DNA of 64,000 nt from Candidatus Poribacteria bacterium (lineage in GTDB: Bacteria > Poribacteria > WGA-4E > WGA-3G): the NCBI GenBank assembly GCA_022821725.1, contig JAJEDB010000071.1, positions 1-64,000 on the forward strand, in the 5' to 3' direction. Positions 50,619 to 59,189 of this stretch are shown here, one piece after another. The notes under the pieces are model-generated. The model saw nothing but the letters and a program-made list of their open reading frames with translations. It was not told the DNA's origin and did no database searches. The first letter of the stretch is position 1. Each line of letters starts with the position of its first letter. Both the position numbers and the translations under genes were made by a program.

Positions 50619-51302
50619 CTACTCAAACAGATGCGCGACTGGGCAGGTAAAACCCGGTATGACAGTATCACCAGTGAGTGTATCATCACGTGTGAGTATC
50701 TCAATATCCGTCTCAGAACGATATACCGTCACGGTTTTGGTAACGGGTTCAAGCACCCAGACGAGGCGTGTTCCTGCGTTCAAATATGCAAATGCCTTCT
50801 CAGCAACACGAGATTGAACATCCGAGGGAGAAACAACTTCAACGGCCAGCTCGGGTGGTATAGGAAACCCCTTTGTTTTGTCGCCCGTCAATTGTGCAGT
50901 CGAAACAAAGGCGACATCCGGTTTTACTGTGCGTTCCCCAACCTGAAAGGTCGTTTCTGCGGTGTACAGACGTCCGAGTTTCTGTTGATAAACATGCGAA
51001 TACAAATAGTAAATGATATTGACGCTAATTTCACCATGTTCTCTCGACGGTGGTGACATCGGTACTAACTCTCCTTTAACATATTCATAACCCTCTACAT
51101 CCTGCTCGAGAAACTCCTCCAACGTCATTGTAGTGCGGATTGTGCGCATCTCTGGAGGGAGTGGTGGCGACTTTGGCACCAATTTGCCGTCTATGTATTC
51201 ATATCCTTCTACATCATGCTCCAGGAACTCTTCCAACGTCATCTTGACACTTTCTGCGGGACGTATGCCTTGTTCAACTTCGTGGATTTCTTGTAACTTC
51301 AT
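50619..51302 (-). CDS. Uma2-family (DUF820) putative endonuclease with internally duplicated N-terminus
   Basis: VKPDVAFVSTAQL, PELAVEVVSPSDVQSRV..K...YLNAGTRLVWVLEP; repeated MTLEEFLE(H/Q)DVEGYEY(I/V). Confidence 0.88.
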   Translation of the reverse strand: MKLQEIHEVEQGIRPAESVKMTLEEFLEHDVEGYEYIDGKLVPKSPPLPPEMRTIRTTMTLEEFLEQDVEGYEYVKGELVPMSPPSREHGEISVNIIYYLYSHVYQQKLGRLYTAETTFQVGERTVKPDVAFVSTAQLTGDKTKGFPIPPELAVEVVSPSDVQSRVAEKAFAYLNAGTRLVWVLEPVTKTVTVYRSETDIEILTRDDTLTGDTVIPGFTCPVAHLFE

Positions 51303-54198: not shown

Positions 54199-54912
54199 CT
54201 ATTCCAAAAAGACGGTAACGCCCAGGTCAGCATACTTCTGGCGGGTGCTGGGACTGCCGTTCCTAAAACAAACAGCGGTTGTCGTTCCCTCTAAAGCTTT
54301 CGCGACGTATTCCACACAAGCATCCACGGTCTGGAGTGCATGATTCGGGTGGCTTTCGATGCTGAACGTCAGATCCGCAGGACCAAAGGAGAGACAGTCA
54401 ACACCCGGCTTCGCGAGAGATCGCGCATGTGTGACGGCTTCTATGGACTCAATCTGCATCCAGAGGATGCCATTGGTGTTCCACCAATCGGCGTATTCAA
54501 GCCGTTCTTTGCCTTCGGAATTCACTCGGGGGGCACCGCCCCAACTCCGAAGTCCCTGCTGTGGATAGTAGAAAGCAGCGACGGCTTCGTTTACGGTTTC
54601 GTCTAATTCGACCTGTGGCACCTCAATGCCTGAGGGACCTAAATCAAGGTAGTTGCCGATAAGATACGTGTTTCGGGTGTGCTTAATCCGAAAGTTGGCG
54701 GGAATTCCGAGTTCATTCGCCATGTTACAGAAGGCGACGAGCCGATCCTCGTTGTATGCAGAGTGTTGGCTATCCACGGCGACAAAATCGTAGCCGCCCT
54801 CTTCGACTTTGGCGACGAGTGCGTCGGCAGATATTGCCATAGACACGTTAGCGCCATAGATGAGTTCTCCGTTGTGGATCCGTTGTTTCAAATTTGCTGC
54901 TGACATTGTCAT
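54199..54912 (-). CDS. HpcH/HpaI aldolase family protein
   Basis: YDFVAVDSQHSAYN, GPSGIEVPQVE, MQIESIEAVTHARSL, LSFGPADLTFSI. Confidence 0.88.
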   Translation of the reverse strand: MTMSAANLKQRIHNGELIYGANVSMAISADALVAKVEEGGYDFVAVDSQHSAYNEDRLVAFCNMANELGIPANFRIKHTRNTYLIGNYLDLGPSGIEVPQVELDETVNEAVAAFYYPQQGLRSWGGAPRVNSEGKERLEYADWWNTNGILWMQIESIEAVTHARSLAKPGVDCLSFGPADLTFSIESHPNHALQTVDACVEYVAKALEGTTTAVCFRNGSPSTRQKYADLGVTVFLE

Positions 54913-55341
54913 CCCTCATTTTTTTAGCGCAGCTTGCGAATCAAAATCTGCTGTTAAATACTGTCTGCGGTGCGCGTGGGTTCAGTTTTACAAGGCAAAC
55001 GGCATAGCGGGTGCTATTCCGAAACCGAGGCAGGCAGGTCAAGTCACGCCTGAATCCCTATAATTATACCCTAAAAATCCTTTTGTGTCAACGGATTTGT
55101 GTTTTGTATAGAACATTCAGCAATCAGCAATCAGCGGTCAGCCGTCGGCATTTCCTTATGCCGCGTTTCAGAGTATTCAGAGTAAAATCCGAAAAGGGAT
55201 AGATTATTAAAAGAGTTGTAAACCTTGATTACAACTGGGTTTTTGACGGTTTTTGTAGGAAGTATTTTGCAGACTTACTCTGAAAGTCTACAAGTTAGTA
55301 GTCAGGAATCGGAGTTCCCTCCTACAAGAATCGGCTGTCCA

Positions 55342-57063
55342 TTATCCTCGTAGGAATTGTATCTGTTGGTTGTCGAAGTGTCGTTCCGATTTCTGGGTTG
55401 GACGGATTCGCCACGCGTCGGGTAAGCGGACGAGGGAGTTGATAACATCAGGGTTCTCAAAGTAGGTATCGTCTATCTGCCAGAATTGAAGGCGCGGGTA
55501 GGTTTGGTGGTTGTGCTCAAAACTGCCCATGTTCTGAGCTTCTTGTCGCATTCTCGCAGTGACAGGTTCAATGGTGATAAAGATGCCGACTTCGGCGTTG
55601 TGCTGATCCATGACGTGGCAGAAGGCACGGACTTGGGTAATGGTAGGTTTGCCAGCCTTGACCTCGGCGAGGATACGCGCATCGGTCTCCTTCATCTGTT
55701 GAGGATTCCACAATGTGACATGTCCGACACCATCAAGTCCACCATCCTTGACATCTTTCGTCGGTCTCAGTCCAAGCCGCGTTACTGCCCAATTTGAGAA
55801 GTCGTGATATTTGCGTTTATCACCCTCTTTCAGCAGTCTGCGGACCTCCTGCATGTTTGTGGGATACCCTTCAATCTGGTAGTCAACAGACGGCTCCAAT
55901 CCGTGTCGGTCTGCCAACCGTTGGCGCATCGGATCGAGTGCGAGAATGGTTATGTCTATCCCCATCCATTGCCGATTGAGGGTATGCGCGGCGTCAATTG
56001 TCGTGCCACAGCCGCAGAACGGGTCAAGGACGATGTCGCCTTCGTTGCTGGAGGCTGTTATGAGGCGTTCATAGAGCGCGATTGGTTTTTGTGTGGGATA
56101 GCCGAGGCGTTCCTTAGAAGCACTCGCAAGGGGATTTATGTCTGTGATAATATCGTGTACTCTACTCCCTTTTGATGTAGATAAATATCGCTTGAATCTT
56201 GGAACGTTGCCCCTCGGTGGCCAATAAACCAATCCATTGGCATCTAATACATTCAATCTTTCATGAACAGAAAGAGACTCATAGTTTTCAGGGGGTCGGA
56301 CATCTTCGGGCCACGCTTCCCTACGTGGTGTGCTCCAATGTCTACCTACTTCACTGGGATCTACATCACGCCACGGTTGACCGGACTCACCTCGTCTAAT
56401 CCCAGGGGCGTTTAGGGAAGCAATCTGGTAGGGGCCTCTTTCGTCCTGATGACGATAAAACTTCTTTACGTATTCCGGATCGTGCGCTGTATAGACGGGA
56501 TTCCAGACCGTTTTGCTGCTTTTGCCATAGAATAGAATCGTGTCGTGGACCCTGCCATATTGTCTGCCATCATTATGTGCATTGGTGCGTTGCCAGATAA
56601 TCTCGTTCCTGAAATTTTCCACACCAAAAACAGCGTCCAGAACTGCTTTGAGATAGTGGCTTGCCGTCGGATCGCAGTGGAGGTAAATGCTGCCGGTGGG
56701 TGTGAGGACTCGGTGCATCTCTGCGAGGCGGGGTCCCATGAAGGCGAGGTAGGCACGCATCGCGCCACTATTACCGGACACGGCGTTTTGTAGGACTAAA
56801 TCGTTTCCTTTGAGACAGTTATCGAGTGCTTTGTAGGTGTCGCTGGTGTAAGCCCGTTTTTCGACCTCGGCCCGTGTGTCTTGTGCGGCGGTGTCCCAGG
56901 TCCAGGTATCAGTGAACGCCTTTTTCTGTGCGAGAGAATCCCCGATAAATGCGTTGTAGTCGCGTCCAGAGTTGAAGGGTGGGTCGGTGCATATTAGATG
57001 GACGCGCTCGTCGTCCATCTCGCGGAGGATTTCGAGGTTGTCCCCGAAGTAGAGTTTGTTCAT
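55342..57063 (-). CDS. DNA methyltransferase fused to a putative Mrr-like PD-(D/E)XK nuclease domain
   Basis: HLICTDPPFNSGRDY, GYPTQKPIALYERLI, VLDPFCGCGTTIDAA methyltransferase motifs; C-terminal KDGGLDGVGHV...ILAEVKAGKPTITQVRAF with GxDG...ExK layout. Confidence 0.85.
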   Translation of the reverse strand: MNKLYFGDNLEILREMDDERVHLICTDPPFNSGRDYNAFIGDSLAQKKAFTDTWTWDTAAQDTRAEVEKRAYTSDTYKALDNCLKGNDLVLQNAVSGNSGAMRAYLAFMGPRLAEMHRVLTPTGSIYLHCDPTASHYLKAVLDAVFGVENFRNEIIWQRTNAHNDGRQYGRVHDTILFYGKSSKTVWNPVYTAHDPEYVKKFYRHQDERGPYQIASLNAPGIRRGESGQPWRDVDPSEVGRHWSTPRREAWPEDVRPPENYESLSVHERLNVLDANGLVYWPPRGNVPRFKRYLSTSKGSRVHDIITDINPLASASKERLGYPTQKPIALYERLITASSNEGDIVLDPFCGCGTTIDAAHTLNRQWMGIDITILALDPMRQRLADRHGLEPSVDYQIEGYPTNMQEVRRLLKEGDKRKYHDFSNWAVTRLGLRPTKDVKDGGLDGVGHVTLWNPQQMKETDARILAEVKAGKPTITQVRAFCHVMDQHNAEVGIFITIEPVTARMRQEAQNMGSFEHNHQTYPRLQFWQIDDTYFENPDVINSLVRLPDAWRIRPTQKSERHFDNQQIQFLRG

Positions 57064-57572
57064 TGTGAGTAACTTTGAGGCGGTAGTGATTCTGGATCCG
57101 CAAAATTGAGAGGAGAAGGTTTGGAATATCTTGTTCCATCTGAATCCTCATAGGTAACATTGATAGTAACTTTCAATTGATTTAAATCGCCCTGTGGATC
57201 TGGTATAATAGGTTTATTATGTCTTCTTTCATCGCCTGGTGCCAGTAAGTCAATTCCGTGCCTGAGAAGATTAATATTCTCAAGTGGTTCGCCTCCATAA
57301 GGTGCGAAAGAAAGACTTTCTTTCTCTCCAAACTCAATTTTACGGGCAACTCCGGTGCCTACATTTTTTACAGAGAGTATAATCTCATAGTCAGCAAAGT
57401 ATTCGTTATGGACATAGAGATTACCGCGTAGGAGGCGAACTATGATCTCCGGTTTATAGGTAGCTTTGAGAGTTTCCCTTGTGAGCCGGACATGCTGCCA
57501 TGTTATATACGCGAGCACAGCAGTGGCAATTGCTACAACCGCTCCTGTAATTAACGTTAGCCACTCTATCAT
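57060..57572 (-). CDS. Hypothetical membrane-anchored protein (N-terminal TM)
   Basis: One N-terminal TM then soluble domain; 4-nt overlap with the methyltransferase-nuclease gene. Confidence 0.7.
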   Translation of the reverse strand: MIEWLTLITGAVVAIATAVLAYITWQHVRLTRETLKATYKPEIIVRLLRGNLYVHNEYFADYEIILSVKNVGTGVARKIEFGEKESLSFAPYGGEPLENINLLRHGIDLLAPGDERRHNKPIIPDPQGDLNQLKVTINVTYEDSDGTRYSKPSPLNFADPESLPPQSYSQ

Positions 57573-57583
57573 GAATTATCCCT

Positions 57584-58129
57584 CTACCGTCCAGACTTAT
57601 GCGTAACTTCAGCTGCTGTCTTGGCTAACAAATCAAGTGTTACATTTTTTAGCTCGCTCAATATAGTCATATCCGTTTCCCGGTCAACGACACGGAATTC
57701 AATTTTTATCTCTCCATTTTCATCAGTGTATTGCGAAATTTGCGGATCACCCACAAAAAGATTCATATACTCACCGACATAACATTCCACTACGACTGGT
57801 TTACTCCTATCAGGTGGGTATGTTATCTTTACATTCTTATGAAATGGCAGTTCACGCACGTTGAAATAGGTCCAGTCCTTAGCCCAATTCTGGACACCGT
57901 GAGTAACAACGCTGGGCACAAAAAAACGTCTTCCAGTTTCTTTTTCTAAAGATTTACAAATGTTGCCAGCGACCGAAATATCGCGGTCAGCACTGAAATG
58001 ATCCTCTTTAACTCTTACCTTTAGGGCATTGATGTGCTTAGAGCCTGTCTCGTCATATTCTAAGTAGTCATAACTTTTCAAAGCATGCTTAAGGGCATGC
58101 ACAATTGTCTGATTTTCCCATAGTTGCAT
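57584..58129 (-). CDS. Hypothetical protein, operon partner of the methyltransferase-nuclease
   Basis: 181 aa, co-directional, 11 nt upstream of the previous gene. Confidence 0.7.
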   Translation of the reverse strand: MQLWENQTIVHALKHALKSYDYLEYDETGSKHINALKVRVKEDHFSADRDISVAGNICKSLEKETGRRFFVPSVVTHGVQNWAKDWTYFNVRELPFHKNVKITYPPDRSKPVVVECYVGEYMNLFVGDPQISQYTDENGEIKIEFRVVDRETDMTILSELKNVTLDLLAKTAAEVTHKSGR

Positions 58130-58171
58130 TATATTCTCCTCCTTAGTTTATGTCACTCATACGAACGACGG

Positions 58172-58249
58172 TTAGCGTGATAACTTCGTCCTTTTCTCAT
58201 CTATTGCGCGGAGGACCTTGAGGTTGTCACTGAAGTAGAGTTTGTTCAT
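58172..58249 (-). pseudogene. Relic of a DNA methyltransferase 5' end
   Basis: MNKLYFSDNLKVLRAIDEKRTKLSR* closely resembles the start of the 57063 gene (MNKLYFGDNLEILREMDDERVHL). Confidence 0.75.
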
Positions 58250-58617
58250 AATTGGCAATCAGTGAGTCGTAAAGATGTTACACTGGTGTAACATTGGGTG
58301 TACAGTGGCTATCGGCAGAGAACCCAGTGCTCGTAAGGGTTTATAGGCTATTATCTTCGGCTTCCGCGCTGCCAAAAAAAGCATTTTGCGGAAAGTGTAA
58401 TATTTCACTTCGTCCTTTTATCAACAAGACGATACATCTAAAATTACTTATCGTCACACTAATTCCATAAGGTGAACGTCTTTTTCCTCCGAAGGAGTCC
58501 ATATCATAGTATAGCATATAGCAGATGCAAAGTTAAGAGAAAAGTGCTAAAGTTTGGGATTTCGTTTTCAGAATACGGATGTTAATGTGGGTTGGATTTA
58601 AGGATTTGACGCAATCC

Positions 58618-58640
58618 AGAGCGGTTAGGAAACCGCTCCT
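58618..58640. repeat. Palindrome AGAGCGGTTAGGAAACCGCTCCT
   Basis: GAGCGGTT/AACCGCTC inverted repeat in noncoding DNA. Confidence 0.7.
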
Positions 58641-58769
58641 ACCGGACCTGGAGAGGCGATGACAAGGGTGAAGCCCATGAAGATAGACGCAGCTTTGGGA
58701 ATTGACAGACTCGGATTTTAAGGGTATGATACTGGAAAATGAAAAGAAATCGTGATGCTGGAGAATTGT

Positions 58770-59189
58770 ATGAAGCCCTATGAATACCTTGAACACACAG
58801 CGGATATGGGACTGTTGGTTAGAGGGAAAAGTCTATCGGATCTGCTGAGAAATGCGGCACAGGGACTCTTTGAAACAATAGCCGTCGTGGATACCGTCGA
58901 TGAGACAGACGCAGTGGAGATTCACCTCACGGCTGAATCCGTGGAAGACCTTTTTGTAAGATGGCTCGACGAACTCATCTTCCAGCACGAAACACAGGAG
59001 ACTTTCTTTAAACGTGCCGACATCAAAGAGTGTAGTGAAACGGCAGTATCAGCGACGGTTTACGGTGAACCTGCAAACTTCGATAAACACGAGGTTTATA
59101 CAGAAATTAAGAGTGTTACATACCATCAGCTGCAGGTCGTGCGAAAGTGTGATGGCAGTTGGTTCGCTCAAGTTATTTTTGATCTGTGA
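58770..59189 (+). CDS. Archease family protein
   Basis: MKPYEYLEHTADMGLLVRGKSLSDLLRNAAQGLFETI, VEDLFVRWLDELIF, EIKSVTYHQLQV. Confidence 0.93.
   Translation: MKPYEYLEHTADMGLLVRGKSLSDLLRNAAQGLFETIAVVDTVDETDAVEIHLTAESVEDLFVRWLDELIFQHETQETFFKRADIKECSETAVSATVYGEPANFDKHEVYTEIKSVTYHQLQVVRKCDGSWFAQVIFDL

Follow-up and report, generated by a model that had tools for sequence, protein, structure and literature searches.

Three tightly spaced minus-strand genes lie between an archease gene and an HpcH/HpaI aldolase gene in the window, the whole 64,000-nt stretch of DNA analyzed here (Candidatus Poribacteria bacterium, assembly GCA_022821725.1, contig JAJEDB010000071.1, positions 1-64,000, forward strand). 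The genome is that of a sponge symbiont, and restriction systems are enriched in sponge symbionts (PMC5649159). The features of the locus are as follows.

54199-54912, minus strand: HpcH/HpaI aldolase gene, conserved and bounding the site on the left (Pfam and locus comparison)
55110-58695, unstranded: whole block absent from the sister species G016 (flanks 95% identical, 16 bp between)
55342-57063, minus strand: 573-aa beta-class DNA methyltransferase with a C-terminal Mrr-type nuclease domain (ORF, Pfam, PADLOC, alignment, AlphaFold, Foldseek)
55531-55767, minus strand: Mrr_cat nuclease core, residues 433-511, with D440, D444, E467 and K469 (Pfam, alignment, Foldseek)
55948-57003, minus strand: methyltransferase domain, residues 21-372, with DPPF at 27-30, DPFCGCGTT at 347-355 and the target-recognition region between (PF01555 and invariant columns)
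56164-56583, minus strand: target-recognition region, about residues 161-300, exchanged between homologs (comparison with L061)
57060-57572, minus strand: TM, 170 aa, the second gene in the exchangeable module, with a single hydrophobic helix at its N terminus and a soluble part that looks mostly beta by eye
57584-58129, minus strand: 'unk', 181 aa, two separable regions (about 1-98 and 93-167), first gene of the module
58172-58249, minus strand: decayed copy of the methyltransferase 5′ end, a 25-codon remnant MNKLYFSDNLKVLRAIDEKRTKLSR* (43 bp, 58207-58249, 88% identity)
58752-59189, plus strand: archease gene, conserved and bounding the site on the right (Pfam and locus comparison)

The three minus-strand ORFs of the initial annotation (573, 170 and 181 aa) were confirmed at their coordinates, and its account of their arrangement is accurate: the 170-aa ORF shares 4 nt (ATGA) with the start of the 573-aa ORF, 11 nt separate the 181-aa and 170-aa ORFs, and the 170-aa product has the N-terminal hydrophobic helix of a membrane-anchored protein. 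The decayed methyltransferase 5′ end that precedes the trio (58172-58249) was overlooked there. Outside the block, a Uma2-family gene (50619-51302) lies beside a threonine synthase-like gene, a pair that is conserved in the genus.

A methyltransferase-Mrr fusion and its distribution

Pfam matched the 573-aa protein to N6_N4_Mtase (151 bits, residues 21-372), Mrr_cat (26 bits against a cut-off of 21, residues 433-511) and NA-iREase1 (29.8 bits against a cut-off of 27), and PADLOC matched it to a Type II methyltransferase (9e-63). Its motif order, with DPPF followed by the recognition region and then FxGxG, is that of the beta class (PF01555). In an alignment with 39 homologs from many phyla, DPPF, FxGxG, D440, D444, V468 and K469 are invariant or nearly so, and D444, V468 and K469 of the Mrr motif (GxDG...ExK) are each present in 40 of 40 sequences. 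Position 467 is glutamate in the window and mostly glutamine (18) or serine (17) elsewhere among the 40; the window protein carries the D...(E/Q)xK active-site residues as D444, E467 and K469. The AlphaFold model of the enzyme has a pLDDT of 83. In Foldseek searches against the PDB, its N-terminal part matches EcoP15I Mod and CcrM, and the matches to MspJI and AspBHI, which span 159-188 columns, were assigned to the C-terminal part because both are Mrr-fold nucleases. No PDB chain was recovered with a sequence profile for the nuclease domain, and the nuclease fold therefore rests on Pfam and Foldseek, with Mrr_cat above its curated cut-off and an Mrr-like fold (MspJI, AspBHI) placing the domain among the Mrr-type PD-(D/E)xK nucleases. 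Caution about nuclease activity is called for by the serine at position 467 in 17 of the 40 distant homologs and by the name of one matched Pfam family, which is that of an inactive nuclease. The dN/dS values are 0.04-0.10 for the enzyme and 0.04-0.08 for its nuclease part.

The methyltransferase-nuclease fusion and the Mrr-like GxDG/ExK pattern first proposed from the sequence thus hold up, with Pfam matches above cut-offs, intact residues and structural matches to both parts, and the AlphaFold check suggested there gave matches to Mrr-fold nucleases. Architecture, fold and residues likewise make the proposed single-polypeptide restriction-modification enzyme plausible; the membrane-linked partners that were to be parts of the same system did not stand.

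Relatives of the enzyme among GTDB genomes are Candidatus Poribacteria, and Chloroflexi, Planctomycetes, Alphaproteobacteria and Streptomyces are among the other groups that have the fusion. Plasmids (pMLa, for example) and viral contigs carry it as well, as do phages, including Streptomyces phage Hippo and Mycobacterium phage Amgine. The Amgine fusion (L353, 2492-4123) lies near an integrase gene and is annotated merely as a methyltransferase; Streptomyces phage Werner carries the same methyltransferase-Mrr fusion as Hippo. Outside Poribacteria, no common neighbor family was found beyond scattered cases, and no relative of unk, TM or the winged-helix-like (wHTH-like) region described below lies near the fusion, which can therefore do without the partners seen in the window. 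Since fusions are widespread without a conserved partner, the 573-aa gene most likely encodes a restriction-modification enzyme that consists of one protein, with methylation, cleavage and a role in defense as its expected activities.

The internal target-recognition region of the methyltransferase would set the site, and the Mrr-type nuclease would cut DNA lacking the mark. At the same genomic site in species G012 (L061), this region is unrelated to that of the window (12.7% identity), with both flanking parts at 84-96%. Conversely, three members of a distant subfamily (L178-L180) have recognition regions 65-71% identical to the window's, the N-terminal part being 46% and the nuclease 25% identical. 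Swapping the recognition region would be expected to re-target methylation and cleavage together. A linkage between upstream module and recognition class at the archease/aldolase site was ruled out, because one recognition class is common to nearly all species and the modules differ.

Gene turnover upstream of the enzyme

Close orthologs of the enzyme (85-91% identity) lie between the archease and aldolase genes in 17 species of the window's genus, a count to which L011 was added by hand. Genes of the unk/TM type directly precede the enzyme in only three of these: unk-TM in the window and in G001, and in G013 (L052) a short unk with a TM variant that overlaps the enzyme start, the full pair being displaced. 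The other 14 species have other genes or none directly before the enzyme. The occupants there are E86, D118 with D100, B217 (a wHTH-like region joined to GIY-YIG) with E86, and a 388-aa lipoprotein; no recognizable module is present in G005, G014 and G025. The enzyme gene of G017, G018 and G019 has lost an internal stretch and retains its two ends, and in G019 unk-TM and further modules, in an array that includes a GmrSD gene, are intact all the same. The end points of the three deletions (L177 in G017, L416 in G018, L173 in G019) differ. Two species (G003, G029) keep unk-TM intact and not adjacent to the enzyme, and G011 has modules and no enzyme at the site. The site is empty in G009 and in the sister species G016, where 16 bp separate the equivalents of window positions 55109 and 58696; the flanking aldolase and archease genes of G016 are 99% and 96% identical to those of the window, and no close enzyme or unk was found anywhere else in its genome. 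In some species the archease gene sits within the array of modules, and two copies of it are present in G006 (L052, L053, L175, L054), so rearrangement or duplication of the array has involved archease as well. The gene that immediately follows the enzyme in G006 encodes a 339-aa RRXRR-domain (PF14239) protein (L054:6816-7835).

Displaced modules are separated by decayed copies of the enzyme 5′ end, 45-85 bp long. Several lack an ATG or are frameshifted, and they are therefore remnants; for the same reason, a role as functional leader ORFs was set aside. The unk remnant breaks off at about codon 20 and the remnants preceding B217 and E86 at about codon 27-28, which indicates that each module has carried its own remnant along. 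At other enzyme sites, nothing beyond 12-13-bp matches to the 5′ end was found.

Neither unk nor TM has a significant match in Pfam, NCBIfam or PADLOC, and the structure of unk predicted from one sequence (pLDDT 35) gave no usable model. Full-length unk is confined to seven species of the genus, in one of which (G017) it is broken, and TM always follows it. Residues 1-98 of unk are also found by themselves, as tandem copies and as part of FRG-TPR (L092) and TPR-HNH (L081) fusion proteins, a small domain joined to different effector types; no second copy fused to a core component was seen near the enzyme. The last part of unk recurs as a 77-aa gene, also before a TM relative. Most pairwise dN/dS values for unk are 0.16-0.27, with 0.35 and 0.56 in two low-dS pairs, and those for TM are 0.08-0.30, both sets including copies that do not abut the enzyme. 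Enzyme, unk and TM are all maintained proteins, and unk-TM is under purifying selection also in species where it does not abut the enzyme or where the enzyme is deleted, independently of adjacency. These values and the conservation of the methyltransferase at the site in 17 species speak against a chance observation. Because other modules before the enzyme are recognizable defense genes, unk-TM is most likely a small independent module of the defense type, a function suggested by its neighbors and domain company. Perhaps unk serves as an adaptor or sensor and TM acts at the membrane.

Paralogs of the enzyme occupy further fixed sites, and there too the directly upstream gene varies between species. 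At the C69-type site it is a DUF5677 gene with a 179-aa protein (L040), a CAP12-type TIR gene with 75-aa and DUF4238 proteins (L166), FRG-TPR (L164), a DUF2971-like gene (L187) or nothing (L165), and at the C55-type site an AAA/OLD-like ATPase (L168) or FRG-TPR (L186). Elsewhere HSDR_N (L169), a ResIII-like helicase (L170) and wHTH-FRG-TPR proteins precede the enzyme, and one gene in a slot is similar to PARIS AriA. At eight loci, FRG/TPR-type slot genes (FRG or wHTH-FRG) overlap the enzyme start by exactly 8 nt, and some slot genes may therefore be true partners. FRG genes are abundant and mostly elsewhere (26 of 30 sampled loci have no such methyltransferase within 1.5 kb), so the association of FRG with the enzyme is not exclusive. 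Across the 60 genomes examined, FRG domains are strongly expanded, with up to 10 per genome and many in TPR proteins. A stretch of roughly 90 N-terminal residues that looks wHTH-like by eye is shared by a GIY-YIG protein (L048:6027-6680) and an FRG-TPR protein (L153:2820-4172), with about half of its occurrences at enzyme loci.

Explanations for the proposed exchange slot

There are several possible explanations for this pattern. The probable one, in our view, takes two parts jointly: a one-protein restriction-modification-like enzyme, and unk-TM as an independent two-gene module in an exchange slot before it. Modules would be displaced and replaced by recombination at the enzyme 5′ end, leaving short remnants between them. 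Remnants and turnover are both observed, and homologous recombination through the 5′-end remnants is the step that would link them. Against this explanation, several slot genes (the 388-aa lipoprotein, E86 and D118/D100) have no defense match, the other enzyme sites yielded no 5′-end remnants, and FRG-type genes with the 8-nt overlap may be true partners. In the window species itself, the ATGA overlap of TM and enzyme could still reflect co-translation and a functional link.

Possible, if doubtful, is a plain variable region in which functionally unrelated genes turn over and the enzyme start does no more than supply suitable homology. Sites that are empty, deleted or rearranged would fit such a region, as would slot genes that look unrelated to defense, such as the lipoprotein; however, several unlinked sites have defense-type genes immediately before the enzyme and in the same orientation. 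We are also doubtful of a reading in which the enzyme is a fixed defense core whose interchangeable 5′ effectors are swapped through the start of the core gene, with displaced modules kept as an array behind remnants. On that reading, recognition specificity and effector would be exchanged independently. Such an array behind 5′-end remnants would be comparable to the orphan modules of polymorphic toxins.

Unlikely, too, is a modular system in which exchangeable 5′ effectors of a shared enzyme core act as a second line when restriction is inhibited, as in PrrC or PARIS. Such a system is supported by the effector-like genes that immediately precede the enzyme at several sites, by the exact 8-nt overlap of FRG-type slot genes at eight loci, and by the wHTH-like N-terminal domain common to FRG and GIY-YIG slot proteins, about half of whose loci are enzyme loci. 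Yet modules are retained where the enzyme is missing, the enzyme has no module in several species at the archease/aldolase site, and FRG genes reside mostly elsewhere.

The initial annotation had suggested that the trio could be a single system in which TM and unk are accessory proteins linked to the membrane, and had proposed co-occurrence of the three genes as a check. An obligate three-gene system of this kind is now very unlikely. The tight same-strand order with its 11-nt gap and ATGA overlap speaks for it, and the related short pair in G013 likewise overlaps the enzyme start, but adjacency is limited to 3 of 17 species. The pair is intact where the enzyme is deleted (G019) or non-adjacent (G003, G029), and the enzyme does without it in 14 species at the site and in other phyla; the partners are conserved beside its homologs in neither setting. 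Homing-type spread, in which the GIY-YIG (T5orf172) nucleases of the array cut the methyltransferase 5′ end and drive module insertion, is scarcely credible: the array does hold two T5orf172 proteins, and the remnants before B217 and E86 do end near the same codons, but unk-TM and other modules contain no nuclease, the remnant before unk ends earlier, and no arrays are present at other sites.

Under the preferred reading, the empty, occupied, displaced and deleted states form a natural series in close species that shows the swapping of defense genes at a restriction enzyme, with no integrase or transposase in view. The uncharacterized families (unk, TM and the wHTH-like adaptor) are offered as candidate defense modules. 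The single-protein methyltransferase-Mrr architecture is widespread, phage-borne as well, and apparently uncharacterized.

Comparison with known systems

The enzyme belongs to a known kind; its cassette-exchange locus is the unusual part. In Type IIC/IIG enzymes of the MmeI family, nuclease and methyltransferase share a recognition module, and exchanging recognition changes both activities (PMC4081073); the window enzyme resembles them in having methyltransferase and nuclease domains in one polypeptide. Most of them have an N-terminal nuclease and a gamma-class methyltransferase, and the Type IIG methyltransferase is gamma-class with NPPY/F/W (PMC4081073), whereas the window enzyme is beta-class with DPPF and carries a C-terminal Mrr-type nuclease. 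BtgZI shares the order of an N-terminal methyltransferase and a C-terminal PD-QxK nuclease but is alpha-class. The enzyme is predicted to work like a Type IIC enzyme such as BtgZI, and we do not file it as Type IIG. Its C-terminal fold and D...(E/Q)xK residues are also those of the Mrr-family enzymes MspJI, AspBHI and EcoKMrr. Modification-dependent nucleases of this family are joined to a reader of DNA or modified bases, SRA-like or winged-helix (PMC12707154), and the window nuclease differs in being joined to a methyltransferase.

Among systems built around restriction enzymes, PrrC and PARIS are defense genes embedded beside, or acting with, the enzyme (PMC12707154). A comparable guardian role for unk-TM is possible; however, the neighbor of the window enzyme varies by species and is dispensable, and slot turnover and deletions break the stable module-enzyme linkage of a guardian. 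Bacterial conflict systems use small coupling domains known as effector-associated domains (PMC7159879). The unk N-terminal region has no Pfam match to a described one, and both it and the wHTH-like region resemble such domains in lacking an enzymatic match and occurring on different effectors. The immigration control region and other defense hotspots hold variable defense genes between two conserved genes (PMC12707154). The site described here differs in being anchored by the enzyme gene itself, degraded 5′-end copies of which lie between the displaced modules.
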